DNA from: Verrucomicrobiia bacterium
GTDB lineage: Bacteria; Verrucomicrobiota; Verrucomicrobiia; Limisphaerales; Pedosphaeraceae
Length of the DNA: 64,000 bases
NCBI GenBank assembly: GCA_036268055.1
Contig: DATAUW010000017.1
Span: 248,001-312,000 of the forward strand
Direction: 5' to 3'
Shown here: positions 56,028-63,234 of the stretch, piece by piece
Position numbering within the stretch: the stretch's first letter is position 1
Layout of the letters: each line of letters opens with the position of its first letter
Translations under genes and position numbers: made by a program
The notes under the pieces: generated by a model
Told to the model about the DNA's origin: nothing
What the model saw: the letters and a program-made list of their open reading frames with translations, nothing else
Database searches by the model: none

Positions 56028-56360
56028 GTGGTAGAGTCTTCTAAGAAGCACGAAGCCAAATCGCAGACTAATAGTTGGGTATATAGCACTCCGGTGAACC
56101 AATGGCGGAAGGGGTGGTTTTTGCATCCCTTTTGCCACTTGGTGATCAAAGCTACAAGGTCTGATTCGCCTCCTCAAGCCATATATGGCTCCTCAATCTG
56201 CAAACAATTATTGCAAATGCGCTTGGACAGGAGGCTTACCCAAGAAACAGTTGCGTCAATACTGGGAATTAGTGTTAGGACGCTTAACAATTGGGAGCAT
56301 GGACGGACAAAGTTGAGTCGAAGGTTTGGCAGCAGAATCAAGCTCTTTTTGGAAGATTGA
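56028..56360 (+). CDS. Short XRE-like helix-turn-helix protein, possibly a remnant
   Basis: Up to 110 residues from GTG 56028. Only the C-terminal half is convincing: LDRRLTQETVASILGISVRTLNNWEHGRTKLSRRFGSRIKLFLED, an XRE-type HTH of the small lone-regulator kind frequent in this phylum. The first 50 residues do not look like a domain and may be non-coding. It lies 43 bases before the distal end of the CRISPR array on the same strand, at the junction between chromosomal genes and the CRISPR locus. Confidence 0.5.
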   Translation: MVESSKKHEAKSQTNSWVYSTPVNQWRKGWFLHPFCHLVIKATRSDSPPQAIYGSSICKQLLQMRLDRRLTQETVASILGISVRTLNNWEHGRTKLSRRFGSRIKLFLED

Positions 56361-56403
56361 TCAGCAGTTATGATGTCAATGACTGCCGCGTATTTGCTGT
56401 GCC

Positions 56404-57760
56404 AATTTGACTTCACCCCCCGGCGAAGTCGGCTACAATTCCTCGAACTGTTCGGCGGCGCGCACCAGGGTTTTGACTTCACCCCCCGGCGAAGTCGGCT
56501 ACAATAATTCCAGCGGCCGGCTTGGTGGTGAGTGGGTTTTGACTTCACCCCCCGGCGAAGTCGGCTACAATGTGGAGCGAGATGGTTTAAGGGCAAGCAG
56601 GGTTTTGACTTCACCCCCCGGCGAAGTCGGCTACAATTTATCATCGGCAAGAAAAGCCCCGGCGCACGTTTTGACTTCACCCCCCGGCGAAGTCGGCTAC
56701 AATTAGGTGGTGTTACCGGGCGGATCTTGCGCGTGTTTTGACTTCACCCCCCGGCGAAGTCGGCTACAATTGGAAAGACAATACAGCAGCCTTGTTATTC
56801 GTTTTGACTTCACCCCCCGGCGAAGTCGGCTACAATAAGATCACGGACGCCCTGGGCTGGGTCGCGGTTTTGACTTCACCCCCCGGCGAAGTCGGCTACA
56901 ATGCCAAGTCCAGACAATCGCACACCGTTTGTGTTTTGACTTCACCCCCCGGCGAAGTCGGCTACAATCAATGCCGGAAATTTATTAACGCTCCACTTGT
57001 TTTGACTTCACCCCCCGGCGAAGTCGGCTACAATATCCGTGCCGATGAAATAAAACGTCTGAAAGTTTTGACTTCACCCCCCGGCGAAGTCGGCTACAAT
57101 CAAAGATAGCATCAGCGTGGATTACAAGCGGTTTTGACTTCACCCCCCGGCGAAGTCGGCTACAATACGATTGGAGACATTCAAAACCCCACCGCGGTTT
57201 TGACTTCACCCCCCGGCGAAGTCGGCTACAATGCGGGCAAAACTTCATGCTGCAGCGGTAGTGTTTTGACTTCACCCCCCGGCGAAGTCGGCTACAATAC
57301 TTGCCCAGGATAACCGCAGGGCGACCGTGTTTTGACTTCACCCCCCGGCGAAGTCGGCTACAATAGTCGCACCAATTCTTTGACCCGGATTCCGGTTTTG
57401 ACTTCACCCCCCGGCGAAGTCGGCTACAATGACTCGCAACTTGGTTGTGCGCGCTCGCGCGTTTTGACTTCACCCCCCGGCGAAGTCGGCTACAATGCGT
57501 TCGATCAAACGATTGACGCGAATTTAGTTTTGACTTCACCCCCCGGCGAAGTCGGCTACAATAACCCCCGTCTCCTTATGAAAAGTGAAGTGGTTTTGAC
57601 TTCACCCCCCGGCGAAGTCGGCTACAATCGCCGGCATCGAGCGCCTGATCAATATCGTGTTTTGACTTCACCCCCCGGCGAAGTCGGCTACAATGCGCAT
57701 CATATAATGGAGCGCAGACTTTGGGTTTTGACTTCACCCCCCGGCGAAGTCGGCTACAAT
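56404..57760 (+). CRISPR. Type II CRISPR array, 21 repeats, 20 spacers
   Basis: 36-base repeat beginning GTTTTGACTTCACCCCCC and ending GGCGAAGTCGGCTACAAT, at a period of 66. Nineteen spacers are 30 bases and one (56704-56734) is 31. Copies 2-21 look identical; the first (56404-56439) starts AA in place of GT, so it is the decayed end. GACTTC and GAAGTC inside the repeat form a six-pair hairpin. GTTTT at the 5' end, the anti-repeat at 57801-57826 and TACAAT at the 3' end show that crRNAs read on the plus strand. All 20 spacers differ; none matched the window by eye. Confidence 0.98.
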
Positions 57761-57764
57761 AGGT

Positions 57765-57792
57765 TTGACCGAAGTAGCTGGTGCGGTATGAT
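57765..57792 (+). promoter_or_regulatory. tracrRNA promoter
   Basis: TTGACC, 16-base spacer, TATGAT (each five of six to consensus). The predicted start, near 57799, is the first base before the anti-repeat. It begins four bases after the last CRISPR repeat. The stretch GGTTTGAC-CGAAGTAGCT here looks like a repeat with its centre deleted. Confidence 0.7.
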
Positions 57793-57798
57793 TTGATG

Positions 57799-57877
57799 CA
57801 ACTTCTCCGGGGGGTGAAGTCTTAACTGATTAGACGGCGTTGAAACTACTGCCTTGTCACGTTTCAACGCCGTTTTC
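57799..57877 (+). ncRNA. tracrRNA
   Basis: Trans-activating CRISPR RNA of about 79 bases. The anti-repeat (57801-57826) is complementary to the first 26 bases of the repeat at 23 of 26 positions, with 15 unbroken pairs (CCGGGGGGTGAAGTC, 57807-57821). A two-by-two mismatch separates this upper stem from a three-pair lower stem at the repeat 5' end, as in other Cas9 guide duplexes. After a short linker the RNA ends in one 13-pair hairpin and a T-tract. No second 3' hairpin or nexus is visible, so the scaffold is unusually small. Ends are predicted, not measured. Confidence 0.85.
57834..57877 (+). terminator. tracrRNA terminator hairpin
   Basis: Perfect 13-pair stem ACGGCGTTGAAAC / GTTTCAACGCCGT with a 14-base loop, followed by TTTT. 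The T-tract touches the cas2 stop codon (57876-57878) read from the other strand. Confidence 0.88.
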
Positions 57878-58235
57878 ATTCCCAAAAGTCCACCTGATCG
57901 GGAATCGTCGAATCCTTGGCACGTTTGTCTTCACGATAGTTTGCTCCAATCACGGTATAGCTTTTTTTCCATTGTTCATCGGTCATAAACATCAGTCGAA
58001 CATTTCCAGCCGTTGGAATTAATTTTTTGATGCGCGCAATGTGAGTATCCATTTGTTCGTAGCTCACGCATGGCCGCGCATAAACGGAAAATTGAATCAT
58101 CAAATAGCCGTTGTCTAACAAATCGTTTCGGAACCGGGTGGCGGCCTTGCGCTCCGTGTCTGTCATCACAGGCAGATCGAACATGGTCAGAATCCAACCC
58201 ATACGAAACGGGCTTTTTTTCTCGACTCGCTTCAC
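57876..58235 (-). CDS. cas2: CRISPR-associated endoribonuclease Cas2
   Basis: Cas2 bridges Cas1 dimers in the spacer-acquisition complex. It starts at GTG 58235, which overlaps the cas1 stop by four bases (GTGA); the ATG at 58202 is less likely. The 119-residue product has the Cas2 core MGWILTMFDLPVMTDTERK, with the conserved Asp at the end of strand 1, then GYLMIQFSVYARPC, and resembles Cas2 of type II-C loci. Last gene of the cas operon, convergent with the tracrRNA. Confidence 0.9.
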   Translation of the reverse strand: MKRVEKKSPFRMGWILTMFDLPVMTDTERKAATRFRNDLLDNGYLMIQFSVYARPCVSYEQMDTHIARIKKLIPTAGNVRLMFMTDEQWKKSYTVIGANYREDKRAKDSTIPDQVDFWE

Positions 58236-59116
58236 GACAATTGAGGCACCCAAAACGGCTCGGATGATCTCTCCGCATAACTGCGAGCAAGTGATGAGGC
58301 AGACGCGTCTAATGCATCCATAAGCTTGAGAGAATAACGCTCCCGCTCGACTCGTCGCTCTCGCAATTCCGTGCCAATCTTTTTGCACCACGCTTTCATG
58401 CTTATGTCCTCGCCAACCATAAATTCCGACATCATTAAGTCAACCGCTGGGCGGTAGGGCTCCATCATGTCGTACACCAACGGGTCAGCGTGAAAACGTG
58501 TCGTATGTTTGACTCCAAGCAACGGCGATAGGCCATGGATCAATAGACTGCGATGGCAAAGCGCCCCCAAGACGGCGTATCCGTAATTTAACATCTTGTT
58601 GGGAGCATTTTCCTGCTTGCGGTCACGCGATGAGGAAACCCAGCCAATGGATGGAAAATAAAGCTGCCAGTAACGGCGCGCGCAATTGCCTTCATCGAAA
58701 TTATCCTGCTTAACTGCAAGTTCGAGGTGTGGCGAAGTCAGTTGCCTCATTTTTAGCACCTTCAATTGATTCACCGTTTTACCTCGAATGAGATGCTGCC
58801 AAAGCCGATTATTTAACCGCACAGGACGTTCCGCTTGGTGTAGAAAAGCTTTGTTGTCAATTACTCGTCCCAAGGGAGCTGTGATCCCGCAGGGTTGATA
58901 GCTTTCGTTGCAATGCAGAATGATGCCGTCCGTTTCCAGAACGGCAGAAACAAAGCTGGATGTGAGTGTAACACCACGTGCTGCGATGATTACCGCACGA
59001 ACATCTTCGTGCGGAATGCGATTTTCGCTTTTGTCTTCGCCACGGCAGACCAAAAATCCCCGGTCTTTGGACAGCACGCAGCCATGTTTAAAAACGTGAA
59101 GTAGATGGTGACTCAT
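58232..59116 (-). CDS. cas1: CRISPR-associated endonuclease Cas1
   Basis: Spacer integrase of 294 residues, the size of type II-C Cas1. The metal-binding residues are visible: Glu in FDEGNCARRYW (about residue 141), His in GVKHTTRFHADPLVYD and Asp in MEPYRPAVDLMM. It starts five bases after the cas9 stop and overlaps cas2 by four bases. There is no cas4 or csn2, which supports subtype II-C. Confidence 0.95.
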   Translation of the reverse strand: MSHHLLHVFKHGCVLSKDRGFLVCRGEDKSENRIPHEDVRAVIIAARGVTLTSSFVSAVLETDGIILHCNESYQPCGITAPLGRVIDNKAFLHQAERPVRLNNRLWQHLIRGKTVNQLKVLKMRQLTSPHLELAVKQDNFDEGNCARRYWQLYFPSIGWVSSSRDRKQENAPNKMLNYGYAVLGALCHRSLLIHGLSPLLGVKHTTRFHADPLVYDMMEPYRPAVDLMMSEFMVGEDISMKAWCKKIGTELRERRVERERYSLKLMDALDASASSLARSYAERSSEPFWVPQLS

Positions 59117-59121
59117 AATTT

Positions 59122-62100
59122 TTAACTCACTCGTTTAAAGCCAGCCGCCAACATTTTTTCCAAACTGATTGGCAGTGACATCTTTCCCGACGAATCCGTA
59201 ACTTTTGCACGACCATCAGTCAGGATGGTGTTTAATTTGTATTTTCCCGGGATAAGAGGCGTCGAATTATGTGAAATGGATTTTTCAAGTTCAACCAAGC
59301 AGCCCGATTGGAAGAAACCAACCATGGCCGTAGCCCCAACATTTTGAATCAGTTCGATTCGCACTCTTGGGGCAGATTCAAAAGCATACACTGGCCGCAC
59401 TTTTGGTTTCCTTTTTGAATCAAAATAAATGAACTGTCCTTTATGCCCTTTGAGCGCCCTGCGAAAGGCACCAGAGCCGTCTTTGGACATATCCTTGTAT
59501 TCGTCCGCATCGCCTACGTTTACACGAACAAATCGTATCGCGCTGCCAGGCAATCCGTTTTTGCGTCGCAAATAGAAGTTCCGGCAGAAATCATTCCACA
59601 TCGTTTCGGTTGGGCCAGTGGAGACAAAGTTAGCAAGTTGTTGTTGAATATGAAAATCGCGTATGGTTTGGATTTGTTTTTTGGCATATTCCAAATCGAA
59701 TTTTGTTTTGCTGGGGCCGACGGGCTTTTGTGCCAGGGTGATCACCTCTGTTCGCCGCACGATAATTCTTCTTTCTCCTGAATAACGCGCGCCGTAAATC
59801 GTTTCAGCTAAAACCGCTTTTTCGAAACATATGTTTTCTGGAATGACGTCTTTAATCTCTCGCTCGAAGAACTGTCTATTCACATTCTCGGGAAATCTGA
59901 AGAAGCCGGTTTTCTTTGGATCGCGTGCCCAAGTAGGAATAAAGCTGATCACCATCGCATCGAGCGCGTGATGACGGTCGTCGTTACGATTCTTCTTTTC
60001 AGCCTCTTCCTCATCTTCGGCATCGGGATTAAGAATGCGATTTAATCCGTATTTGCGACGGATGCGACCGGTCAAGCCTCCCGAAATAATAACCACTCGT
60101 TTCTGGCCTTTCATATCGGTACCGTTCCGCCATCCGAAGTGCAGATCAAGAATCGCTTGGGCCAGTTTTGAAATCCAAGCTGTTTCCGCCAAAGCTGTGT
60201 ATTTTTCGACCAGAGTTTCGGCAATAGGTGAAAGGAGGAGCTGTGCCTTTTTGTGACGAAGGGTGGTCAACCGTTCGCGCACACGGTTGACATAGGCATC
60301 CCACCCGTTTGTGGTGGAAAGCCATTCGTATGGGGTGCGATTACTTTTGTCATCATTCGTGCGCCGAGTGGTAAGGACATAATTAAGTGCAGCATCCGGG
60401 CCACCCTTGGCGCGGGGCACGACATGGTCAATGACATACTGATCCAGTTCAGTTGGAATTAGACCATCGCCCGTATAGAGGCAGATACCTTTTTGCGCGT
60501 TTAACAGCTCTAATTTAAATCCCGCTGCCCTTTCGCTATTTCCGGCTTCGGCAGCCTCCTTTTTTGCTCTTGCCCGATCGGTTGCCCGGTCTCTGATGAA
60601 TTTATTATATTCCAGCTTCGCCTTCCGTCCCATGAAATCCTCCCTCACAAATTCCAGAACAACGCTCTCAGGCTCGCCAAACTTTGCGGTAAAAACCGTT
60701 AATCGTTCAGCGAATACGCTCAGCCGATGGCGAACAATTGGATCGTTTTGCAACCCGATTAAACTGCGAACGGCTTTATCTGGGCTCTCTGCACTCCGTA
60801 CAAGCGCGTCGAGCCGCTGATTGGGAATGTAAATCCCCTCCCACGTCTCACCCATTCGGAGCAAGAACTTCAAGTCATCCTTAACCAACCCCTTCAGCAG
60901 ATTGGTATTGCCCTTAAGCTCGGCGACTTCGGCGTCATAAAAATGCTTTGGCGATTCCCCGGAAAGGATCAATCGTTTTAGAATGTCCAGCGCGGGACGG
61001 CAAAAGCGACTACGTCCAGAAATTTTGGGCGCTTCGACGCTTTCGTGCCCGGGCAATGCAACGGCGAGTAGCGGGGCGCATATCTTCTTTTTCCAAGCCG
61101 CTTCCGTAATGGCGAGATTATTGAAAGCCGGATTCTCAATAATCGCTTTGATTTCTTTCGCGCTAAGGCTGGTTGACTTGCCTGCGCGTTGAATCCTCAT
61201 ATTTTTTAACTTCATGAGGAATGCGACCTCTGCCGCCAATTTTGATTGCGGATGGATCGCCCCTTTACTATCGGTGCGAACCTTGCAGACGTTCATGCGG
61301 GGAATGAGCACGCACTTGCCAATGATGCGATTGTCGAATCGCGGGATCTTTTGACCGACCACGCCTTGCCAGTCGTTCGCCCCGCCTTCTTTCAAATCAT
61401 ATTGTCTGCGAAGTTTGGCATCGTAAGAAGCATAAGCCGTCTCGGATGGTCCATAAAGTAGGTATTTGGTCAGTCCTTTGAGCTGCGGATAGTGTTTTGC
61501 GGCGCCTTCCATTAGTGCAGCTATTTCTTTTTCCACTAATTTGCGAGGGACAATGTGGTTGCGCGTGCTTTCGGCGCGGCAACTGATTCGGTCTTTGAGC
61601 TGTGTCGGTTTGGCAGGATCCCAAAGTCCCATTTTCCACGCTTCGAAGTAGCAGGGAAAGTGAAATACGGGCTTGCCCGGAGCCATTTCCTCCAATTGTC
61701 TTATAAATTCCTCCATGCGTGCTTGCGTTCCTGCTTCATCGTCTTCGGCGTTACCTGGTTTGGCCTTGCTTTGGCTCCGGGTTTTCCATGGAATGTTTGC
61801 ATCGTAACCGCGTCGTTGAATGGCAGAGTGGAATGCTTTGTATACCTGCCAGGCCTCCAACTGCTCGCCAAGCAACAGCTTAATGCGAAGCAAAGATGAT
61901 GTATAGCAAGTCGGATCGCCCGGAGCAGCAAATTCGCGCTCAAGCCGGTGACGACTAAGTTTTTGAACTTCGGTTTCTACTGTAGCCTGCCATTTGCCAT
62001 CAATTTTTATTGTCTGCCGTCCTATTAACGGTTCAATGCCGGCTTTAAGCATCACTTCCCCGAGCCAGCGTTCACGTTCTTGATGAGCAATACGCGTGCG

Positions 62101-62274
62101 CCACATACGACGACGGCTCGCCGCAGTTTTTGTTTCGGCGAATTCAGCAGGAATGAGGAATGACGCCTTGTGTAAAAATGTGTCGTTGAGTCGGACAGCT
62201 TCGCCGATGGACGCTTTGCCCAAGTCAAAGGCCCAAATAGTTTTTTCGTGTATTAAAGGATTTCCAGAGTTCAT
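59122..62274 (-). CDS. cas9: Compact type II-C Cas9 nuclease
   Basis: RNA-guided DNA endonuclease of 1050 residues, in the small type II-C range. Nuclease residues: RuvC-I Asp17 (WAFDLGKASIG), RuvC-II Glu541 (SVVLEFVRED), HNH Asp616-His617 (YVIDHVVPRAKGG) with Asn631, and RuvC-III His769/Asp772 (DDRHHALDAMV). The Arg-rich bridge helix is at about 51-70. REC spans about 80-500 and the PAM-interacting domain about 800-1050. The HNH has CLYTG and SNRTPYEWL like other II-C enzymes. Start ATG 62274 follows AGGAAA. PAM unknown. Base composition is more AT-rich than the chromosomal genes to the left. Confidence 0.96.
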   Translation of the reverse strand: MNSGNPLIHEKTIWAFDLGKASIGEAVRLNDTFLHKASFLIPAEFAETKTAASRRRMWRTRIAHQERERWLGEVMLKAGIEPLIGRQTIKIDGKWQATVETEVQKLSRHRLEREFAAPGDPTCYTSSLLRIKLLLGEQLEAWQVYKAFHSAIQRRGYDANIPWKTRSQSKAKPGNAEDDEAGTQARMEEFIRQLEEMAPGKPVFHFPCYFEAWKMGLWDPAKPTQLKDRISCRAESTRNHIVPRKLVEKEIAALMEGAAKHYPQLKGLTKYLLYGPSETAYASYDAKLRRQYDLKEGGANDWQGVVGQKIPRFDNRIIGKCVLIPRMNVCKVRTDSKGAIHPQSKLAAEVAFLMKLKNMRIQRAGKSTSLSAKEIKAIIENPAFNNLAITEAAWKKKICAPLLAVALPGHESVEAPKISGRSRFCRPALDILKRLILSGESPKHFYDAEVAELKGNTNLLKGLVKDDLKFLLRMGETWEGIYIPNQRLDALVRSAESPDKAVRSLIGLQNDPIVRHRLSVFAERLTVFTAKFGEPESVVLEFVREDFMGRKAKLEYNKFIRDRATDRARAKKEAAEAGNSERAAGFKLELLNAQKGICLYTGDGLIPTELDQYVIDHVVPRAKGGPDAALNYVLTTRRTNDDKSNRTPYEWLSTTNGWDAYVNRVRERLTTLRHKKAQLLLSPIAETLVEKYTALAETAWISKLAQAILDLHFGWRNGTDMKGQKRVVIISGGLTGRIRRKYGLNRILNPDAEDEEEAEKKNRNDDRHHALDAMVISFIPTWARDPKKTGFFRFPENVNRQFFEREIKDVIPENICFEKAVLAETIYGARYSGERRIIVRRTEVITLAQKPVGPSKTKFDLEYAKKQIQTIRDFHIQQQLANFVSTGPTETMWNDFCRNFYLRRKNGLPGSAIRFVRVNVGDADEYKDMSKDGSGAFRRALKGHKGQFIYFDSKRKPKVRPVYAFESAPRVRIELIQNVGATAMVGFFQSGCLVELEKSISHNSTPLIPGKYKLNTILTDGRAKVTDSSGKMSLPISLEKMLAAGFKRVS

Positions 62275-62359: not shown

Positions 62360-62878
62360 TTAAGACAGTTTCCGCTCATTCTGTAGTCCATTTATCATGG
62401 CGAGTGCAACCGCATCGAAAATATCCATCCGATAATCCGCGCTCATCCATGCTTTGCGCTCGGGCGGCAAACGTGATCCCAATTCTTGAGGAAACCTTTT
62501 GGCAAGAATTTTAGCAATTTCATGCTTTGTTCTTTTCTCGCCCGCAAAAAATGCCTTGTTAATCTGTGTTCGCGAAAACAGCCTTGCTTTGATTTTGTGT
62601 TTTGTAGCCAAATTGCTAATTTCTTGACAGAGTATTTGAATCCTCGGCGACCGGCGGGAGTCTTTCGCCAACGTGTTCTGAATCACAATTGTTTTCGGCT
62701 CGTAGAGAGTAAGCAACTCGGAGATCTTTTTTATGGATTCGGCATTTTTGTCTCCGACAACAGACTTGACTCCCCAATTAACGAGATGTTCCTGTCCTTC
62801 GAGAACAGCAAAACCGAAGCCCCGGCTTGAAGGCGTAATGGCCAGGATGCGGAATTGTTTTGAGTTAGCGCGGTTCAT
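62360..62878 (-). CDS. RuvC-like protein with degenerate active site
   Basis: 172 residues with the RNase H fold order of RuvC: FRILAITPSSRGFGFAVLEG, KTIVIQNTLAKDS, TKHEIAKILAKRFP and MDIFDAVALAMING. In RuvC the first strand carries Asp (DPG) and the second Glu (IEQ); here these are Thr (ITP) and Gln (VIQ). The C-terminal pair of Asp (D-I-F-D) is kept. It is therefore a likely non-cutting nucleic-acid binder, or a divergent enzyme. Its start overlaps the XRE gene stop (ATGA), and cas9 begins 85 bases downstream. Confidence 0.8.
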   Translation of the reverse strand: MNRANSKQFRILAITPSSRGFGFAVLEGQEHLVNWGVKSVVGDKNAESIKKISELLTLYEPKTIVIQNTLAKDSRRSPRIQILCQEISNLATKHKIKARLFSRTQINKAFFAGEKRTKHEIAKILAKRFPQELGSRLPPERKAWMSADYRMDIFDAVALAMINGLQNERKLS

Positions 62879-63234
62879 GGTTGTTTTGGAATTTTTTTCG
62901 ATGTTCTCGCTGCGATGTCTGCCAGAGCTTCACGTTTGCGCGCCGTTTGGCTGTCTGACTCGCTTCGACTCATTTTGCGCTCCAGAGTCTTGGCGCGTGC
63001 CGCCACTTCCTTCTCAATTTTATGATAAATGCCGGCAAGGAGTTCGTTTGCCGGACGCCCAAATATCACTTTGTAGGCGAGCGCCGTTTCAAGGTTGGGC
63101 ACACGGGAGAAGCTTTCATATCGGCTCACCTTCGATCCGCTTTTCACTCCCAAAAGGTAGGCAATTTCATCCTGGGTGAGGCCCAGGCGTTTTCGATGCG
63201 TTTTTAAATAATTTGGAAGGTGAGACGAAGCCAT
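62875..63234 (-). CDS. XRE-family transcriptional regulator
   Basis: 119 residues. N-terminal HTH_3 domain with GLTQDEIAYLLGVKSGSKVSRYE (about 18-40) and NLETALAYKVIFGRPANELL, then a Lys/Arg-rich helical tail. It is coupled to the RuvC-like gene by a four-base overlap and precedes cas9 by the same operon direction. It probably represses its own promoter; an inverted repeat GGAGT-TCACC-ACTCC lies at 63258-63272, between the start and the likely promoter. Confidence 0.88.
   Translation of the reverse strand: MASSHLPNYLKTHRKRLGLTQDEIAYLLGVKSGSKVSRYESFSRVPNLETALAYKVIFGRPANELLAGIYHKIEKEVAARAKTLERKMSRSESDSQTARKREALADIAARTSKKIPKQP

Follow-up and report, generated by a model that had tools for sequence, protein, structure and literature searches.

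The canonical guide scaffold of Cas9 consists of the repeat:anti-repeat duplex, a nexus and one or more further 3' hairpins. In a catalogue of 79 orthologs the shortest sgRNAs (clade V) are described with two hairpins after the anti-repeat (PMC7606464), and two stem-loops after the anti-repeat are likewise given for CoCas9 (PMC11043407) and EHCas9 (PMC10281378). One survey of mollicute tracrRNAs reports a nexus and a terminator in all of them (PMC6882279), and the CoCas9 screen discarded candidates lacking a nexus and a 3' hairpin (PMC11043407); another survey states, in a text that gives no details, that many predicted tracrRNAs depart from the canonical fold (PMC10278012). In the open-access literature we found no description of a one-hairpin Cas9 tracrRNA, nor of any tracrRNA from the Cas9 clade analysed here.

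The locus studied lies in a 64-kb stretch of DNA, which is analysed as a whole and called the window, and its CRISPR-Cas block comprises the following features:

56404..57760, plus strand: CRISPR array, 21 repeats of 36 nt, crRNA strand plus
57761..57800, plus strand: array-to-anti-repeat segment, putative tracrRNA promoter region and, by array polarity, putative leader
57765..57770, plus strand: -35-like TTGACC, 4 nt past the end of the last repeat, may double as a leader element
57787..57792, plus strand: -10-like TATGAT, 16 nt after TTGACC
57801..57826, plus strand: tracrRNA anti-repeat, pairing with repeat positions 1-26
57827..57833, plus strand: linker UGAUUAG from duplex to hairpin; its A in UGA and the CUUAAC before it are invariant in 22 aligned sequences
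57834..57873, plus strand: the one 3' hairpin, its stem formed by 57834-57846 and 57861-57873 and its loop, 57847-57860, holding the tip motif
57873..57876, plus strand: TTTT whose first T is paired in the stem, presumed (weak) end of the transcript
57876..58391, minus strand: cas2 open reading frame, convergent with the array
58232..59116, minus strand: cas1 (type II)
59122..62274, minus strand: cas9, 1050 aa, with RuvC-I DLGKASIG, HNH DHVVP and RuvC-III HHALDA

The linked Cas9 thus carries both RuvC and HNH motifs, and the genome itself has an RNase III gene. The true start of cas2 is probably further in, since many relatives match only from about residue 55. Because of its position, its pairing with the repeat, the covariation of its stem, the lack of conserved structure downstream and its restriction to one Cas9 clade, we consider it very probable that the plus strand at ~57799-57877 is the tracrRNA gene of this Cas9-Cas1-Cas2 system, and that the scaffold consists of the duplex and one hairpin. 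The preliminary description of this DNA had proposed such a scaffold, and position, pairing, covariation and clade restriction all support it.

The anti-repeat lies on the array's strand, outside the array, between the last repeat and cas2. As first described, it matches the repeat by Watson-Crick pairing at 23 of 26 positions, the next-best ungapped place in the 64-kb window (array excluded) reaching 16 of 26. From the spacer side the duplex has 3 bp, a 2x2 U.U internal loop and then 15 bp. Three pairs, two mismatches and then at least six pairs were found in 17 of the 18 loci with a readable repeat, with repeat and anti-repeat changing together, and in the eighteenth (L054) the first pair is missing; the internal loop is U.U at both mismatches in all but L038, which has one C.U. 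Twenty loci entered this comparison, among them L037, which has no readable repeat, and L067, where the place picked was not the repeat. The constant internal loop is likely to be a contact of Cas9 or of RNase III.

The tail after the anti-repeat measures 50 nt and holds one hairpin, whose 13 Watson-Crick pairs can be extended by one G-U and one A-U pair and whose 14-nt loop contains a variant of the tip motif with one extra base. Its minimum free energy is -23.1 kcal/mol (z -5.84), and none of 200 shuffles was as good. The preliminary description had the 13-pair hairpin end in TTTT and abut the cas2 stop; the 13 pairs stand, but the first T is the last base of the stem, so that the free T-run is short, and the cas2 stop (TGA, minus strand, 57876-57878) overlaps the last T by one base. 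A terminator scan reported no site, but it admits only loops of 3-8 nt, and the loop here has 14. Rfam gave no match in the window at gathering cut-offs, and in 56300-58000 nothing better than E 3.4, for a microRNA family far below its cut-off; the tracrRNA segment had no match in plasmids.

A contig scan with the window's Cas9 gave 24 loci, to which family searches added more. The same RNA recurs in related loci, again on the strand of the array and at its cas2 end: GUCUUAACUGAU, then one hairpin whose stem sequence is very different and whose tip is conserved. We aligned 22 sequences from 21 loci, window included, L061 supplying two copies; from the model we omitted L052, which has two extra small hairpins, and the divergent L054. 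Invariant in this alignment are CTTAAC, the A of TGA, two letters of the tip and one C of the 3' side. All 13 pairs of the main stem change on both sides among the 22 sequences, as do 2 of 3 in the tip, which makes 15 of 16, against a shuffle mean of 11.2. Pairing cells amount to 83.1% (shuffle mean 60.4%), cells with change on both sides number 81 (shuffle mean 26.5), and the covariation score is 0.569 (shuffle mean 0.202), a value reached by 0 of 500 shuffles, which ignore relatedness; structures slid along the alignment, which keep relatedness, scored at most 0.163. An unguided RNAalifold run predicted the same hairpin as the alignment structure. Alignment with related Cas9 loci, named in the preliminary description as a way of checking its reading, therefore returned the same RNA in the same place with one conserved hairpin.

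Two loci show variations of their own. In L061 two tandem tracrRNA copies (158-224 and 447-513) lie beside one cas2, and the cas9 frame is in two overlapping pieces; in L052 (3454-3555, minus strand) two extra small hairpins stand between the linker and the conserved hairpin.

A covariance model, R1, was built from the alignment and searched over 42 sources, giving 27 matches at E up to 1. In this set R1 matches every one of the 26 clade loci for which cas2 was matched, the window among them, though only weakly in L054 (15.9 bits, E 0.47); L113 too has a match, beside cas2. Strong matches outside the model were obtained in L048 (72.8 bits), L049 (53.8), L113/G064 (49.3) and L043 (45.4), all four with a single hairpin and the same linker beside cas2, the tip being longer in L043; L052, also outside the model, matched weakly (25.7 bits). 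The window's own genome has one match. Among 387 genomes of the phylum R1 gave eight matches at E 0.01, six of which fall in exactly the six genomes where NCBIfam NF049971 (CRISPR_Cas9d) exceeds its cut-off, all six having supplied sequences to R1. The other two, in G225 (31.0 bits) and G450 (28.2 bits), have no match to a window Cas protein within 3 kb and were set aside as chance.

In 274 genomes of the order R1 matched in 10 and NF049971 passed its cut-off in 14, with nine shared; only G050 and G064 of the ten lie outside the model. The five NF049971 genomes without the RNA (G553, G523, G495, G057 and G070) are not counted as negatives because their contigs end within cas9 or cas1, and G064, the tenth genome with the RNA, carries it next to cas1-cas2, with a piece of Cas9 on a different contig. 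G064 is also the only one with an R1 match among the 11 genomes of the order whose Cas9 matches (E 1e-50 or better) stay below the NF049971 cut-off. In a Cas9 tree of 50 rows, made by a quick method, the 24 RNA-bearing rows fall in one group (SH-aLRT 100), with one change of the RNA label against the other labelled rows. This tree has 16 unlabelled rows, five of them inside the RNA group on contigs from which the tracrRNA region is absent; L122, L121, L071 and L072 are on long branches, as are two of the only three named reference rows. The RNA thus tracks one Cas9 clade. No Cas9 relative was confirmed in viral contigs.

How much RNA follows the hairpin bears on whether it completes the scaffold. 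The tracrRNA could be longer than we propose, reading through the T-run opposite cas2 or starting in the last repeat, with extra structure completing the scaffold. The T-run of the window is weak, the repeat is itself promoter-like, and private second hairpins were found within the first 80 nt in 4 of 24 loci (L041, L053, L064 and L067; z -2.8 to -4.8), with further values of z -2.0 to -2.6 at 80-160 nt in L033, L037 and L041. Against this, neither 0-80 nor 80-160 nt downstream holds conserved structure in the 24 loci (RNAalifold energy 0 for both), and the window gives z +0.5 and +0.1 for these stretches against 60 single-base shuffles, so that a longer RNA of this kind seems unlikely to us. 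Conserved hairpins past 57877, which according to the preliminary description would speak against its reading, are accordingly absent from these loci. The window scaffold has only the single conserved hairpin; given the four private hairpins and the insertions in L052, one hairpin is the conserved core of this RNA rather than a universal form.

The hairpin might instead be nothing but a terminator, leaving the repeat:anti-repeat duplex and the linker as the functional scaffold, and T's do follow it in most aligned sequences, at a boundary with the convergent cas2. A terminator, however, does not need a conserved tip on a stem whose sequence is free, and L068 and L053 keep the hairpin without a T-run; in L053 a second hairpin, followed by T's, lies downstream and is the likelier terminator, as the first lacks a T-run. 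We regard this reading as quite improbable and keep to that of a tracrRNA whose hairpin belongs to the scaffold.

The array bears on where transcription might begin. Its 20 spacers are 30 nt long except one of 31, and 20 of its 21 repeats are perfect, the first (56404) being degenerate with two changes; the last, repeat 21, occupies 57725-57760. At the tracr-distal end, 7 of 9 arrays have a repeat-like unit with 1-13 mismatches, the other two (L036 and L066) showing no recognisable unit; at the tracr-proximal end the repeat is perfect in every one of the nine. The L036 array has two further imperfect repeats, which are internal. This polarity makes it probable that spacers are added next to the tracrRNA gene, in which case 57761-57800 would serve as leader and as tracrRNA promoter region alike. 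The array had no match in a phage collection, and the newest spacer, the only one of the 20 searched against viral contigs, had no exact match there.

The preliminary description had given the tracrRNA its own promoter. The pair it named just after repeat 21, TTGACC-16-TATGAT, is present and agrees with the consensus in 10 of 12 letters, and a scan of 201 nt found two promoter-like sites against a shuffle mean of 0.1, the other being the last repeat itself (TTCACC-16-TACAAT). Among 24 upstream segments (no anchor was available for L049 and L113) no common -10 is seen, whereas TTGAC, TCGAC or TTGTC begins 4 nt past the repeat end in 14 (counted by eye), and only the window, L045, L053 and L040 have promoter scores of p 0.05 or less against shuffles. 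A fixed TTGAC beside a varying -10, at the end of the array where the polarity places the leader, could therefore be a leader element for spacer integration, the tracrRNA promoter being elsewhere or weak. Though the window's hexamers and their 16-nt gap speak for a promoter, and the two roles are not mutually exclusive, we hold this to be possible, if doubtful. A promoter at TTGACC-16-TATGAT is plausible from the letters of the segment, so the earlier claim survives for the hexamers of the window and not for a conserved -10. With a -10 that varies among the loci and a weak T-run, the transcript ends are unsure, and those of a 79-nt tracrRNA (~57799 and ~57877) are a guess.

The Cas9 of the window matches NF049971 over the whole model length (1253 bits, cut-off 375), as all 15 members of A3, window included, match it at E <= 0.001, and in this it resembles Cas9d (MG34-1, MG102). 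Published Cas9d proteins are described with CxxC ribbon motifs and, in most members, an RRXRR hit (PMC9755519). The window Cas9 has no Pfam hit to RRXRR (PF14239) and neither a CxxC-type nor an RRxRR motif; several relatives have CYTSC near residue 110-130, and L043 has CGIC at 580. Cas9d proteins are put at about 600-970 aa (PMC11706934) and the II-C2 MG33 proteins at 900-1050 aa (PMC9755519), and the former II-C2 has been folded into II-D (PMC12669027), so that the fit of 1050 aa, outside the first range and within the second, depends on the definition used. The II-D adaptation module is described as cas1, cas2 and cas4 (PMC12669027), which is contradicted by a statement that II-D loci have none of the three (PMC11706934). 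The locus holds cas9, cas1 and cas2, with neither csn2 nor cas4 among the neighbours scanned: the other open reading frames covered (62360-62878, 62875-63234 and 56028-56360) are not cas genes. Cas9d-MG34-1 is a 747-aa protein whose sgRNA of 158 nt has four paired regions (PMC11706934), in contrast to the larger protein of the window and its short RNA with a 50-nt tail. Because the RRXRR hit, the CxxC motifs, cas4 and the long multi-helix guide RNA are all missing, we do not file the system under II-D; by gene content alone it fits II-C.

With type II-C systems (Neisseria, ThermoCas9, AceCas9, CoCas9, EHCas9) it shares cas9-cas1-cas2, 36-nt repeats with a -10-like end, a tracrRNA pairing with the 5' part of the repeat and the Cas9 fold over the whole length. 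The fold model is Cas9-like (mean pLDDT 75.3, pTM 0.60), and its best rows, AceCas9, St1Cas9, CbCas9, ThermoCas9 and Nme1Cas9, are tied with Z all about 18 and rmsd >10; NbaCas9 (736 aa) at Z 15.7 does not settle the subtype. Foldseek lists SaCas9, St1Cas9 and Nme1Cas9 first, with TM-scores of 0.3-0.4. By sequence and fold together the nearest solved structures are Cas9s such as Nme1, St1, Sa, AceCas9 and ThermoCas9; for the N-terminal half, no PDB entry is clearly related in sequence (best E 0.012).

Counted from the Asp of RuvC-I up to the stop, Cas9 is 1024-1100 aa long in 19 clade members that have this motif and a closed frame, each contig being counted once and the broken L061 left out; L062 (1207), L049 (1278) and L042 (1194, open end) are longer, and five neighbours with closed frames measure 1001-1025 aa. 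A trade of protein growth for RNA shrinkage was considered and dropped, the length difference being too small to claim. The open cas9 frames of L062, L049, L042, L045 and L068 (1199-1335 aa) are longer than the window protein.

Just upstream of cas9, 62360-62878 (minus strand) encodes a RuvC-like protein (phrog_159, E 1e-4; first acidic motif ITPSS) that is matched in 6 of the 58 genomes searched, the window's own among them; it is probably not part of the system, since none was found beside the fetched Cas9 relatives. Xre-type HTH proteins flank the CRISPR-Cas block (62875-63234, minus strand; 56028-56360, plus strand).

In the same order, a neighbouring clade of Cas9 (L105, L107 and L108) likewise has its tracrRNA between cas2 and the array or the contig end, but the tails are longer (~100 nt): they hold one or two inner hairpins plus a GC-rich terminator set apart from them, where the window clade has one hairpin. 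Complementary GACC...GGTC surrounds the inner hairpin(s), and an enclosing helix is predicted in L107 only, whose layout resembles the P2-P3-P4 arrangement of Cas9d-MG34-1 (PMC11706934), a likeness taken from the description and not from sequence. The first hairpin of the three loci has CACTG 5' and CAC 3' of the tip (by eye). Homology between it and the conserved hairpin of the window clade is not claimed, CACTG...CAC being all they have in common, and is kept as a lead because R1 has no match up to E 10 in these loci. Tails with at least two predicted hairpins, with short anti-repeat matches, were found in 6 of 11 further Cas9 loci of the order (L114-L118 and L120), and such tails in 2 of 3 plasmid-borne references (L070 and L071); the remaining loci and reference gave no convincing anti-repeat.

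By its sequence this RNA would form the duplex with every array repeat. The tracrRNA is predicted to be transcribed and to be needed for crRNA maturation and for cleavage: it would pair with the crRNAs, be cut by host RNase III and be loaded on Cas9. Every repeat ends in a -10-like TACAAT, and for this reason crRNAs may be initiated within the repeats, as has been described in Neisseria meningitidis, whose repeats are likewise reported to be promoter-like (PMC5052741). The hairpin, 13-15 bp long with a conserved tip on a stem that, to judge from the aligned sequences, has co-varied through the clade, would be the sole element of the scaffold, bound by Cas9 in place of the nexus and 3' hairpins of other systems, and may also serve as a weak transcription end.

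Instead of at least two hairpins after the duplex, the 22 aligned sequences have one conserved hairpin, in contrast to the two-hairpin minimum of the 79-ortholog catalogue (PMC7606464), and a one-hairpin tracrRNA may be new relative to described Cas9 scaffolds, with an earlier description possible. Tentatively, and with chances we put a little short of even, all of this Cas9 clade (Verrucomicrobiota, Kiritimatiellota and unclassified MAGs) has cut its scaffold down to the duplex and one hairpin that is both Cas9 anchor and transcript end, losing the enclosing helix and separate terminator of its neighbours. The clade would escape filters for a nexus and a 3' hairpin, since at least one screen drops candidates that lack them (PMC11043407), and R1 can be used to find more such RNAs. 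Should the clade-wide reduction hold, the clade would have the smallest scaffold of any natural Cas9 and, with it, a short sgRNA ready for use, which, if it works, would likely be orthogonal to known ones; a one-hairpin scaffold that works would show that Cas9 can do with very little RNA.
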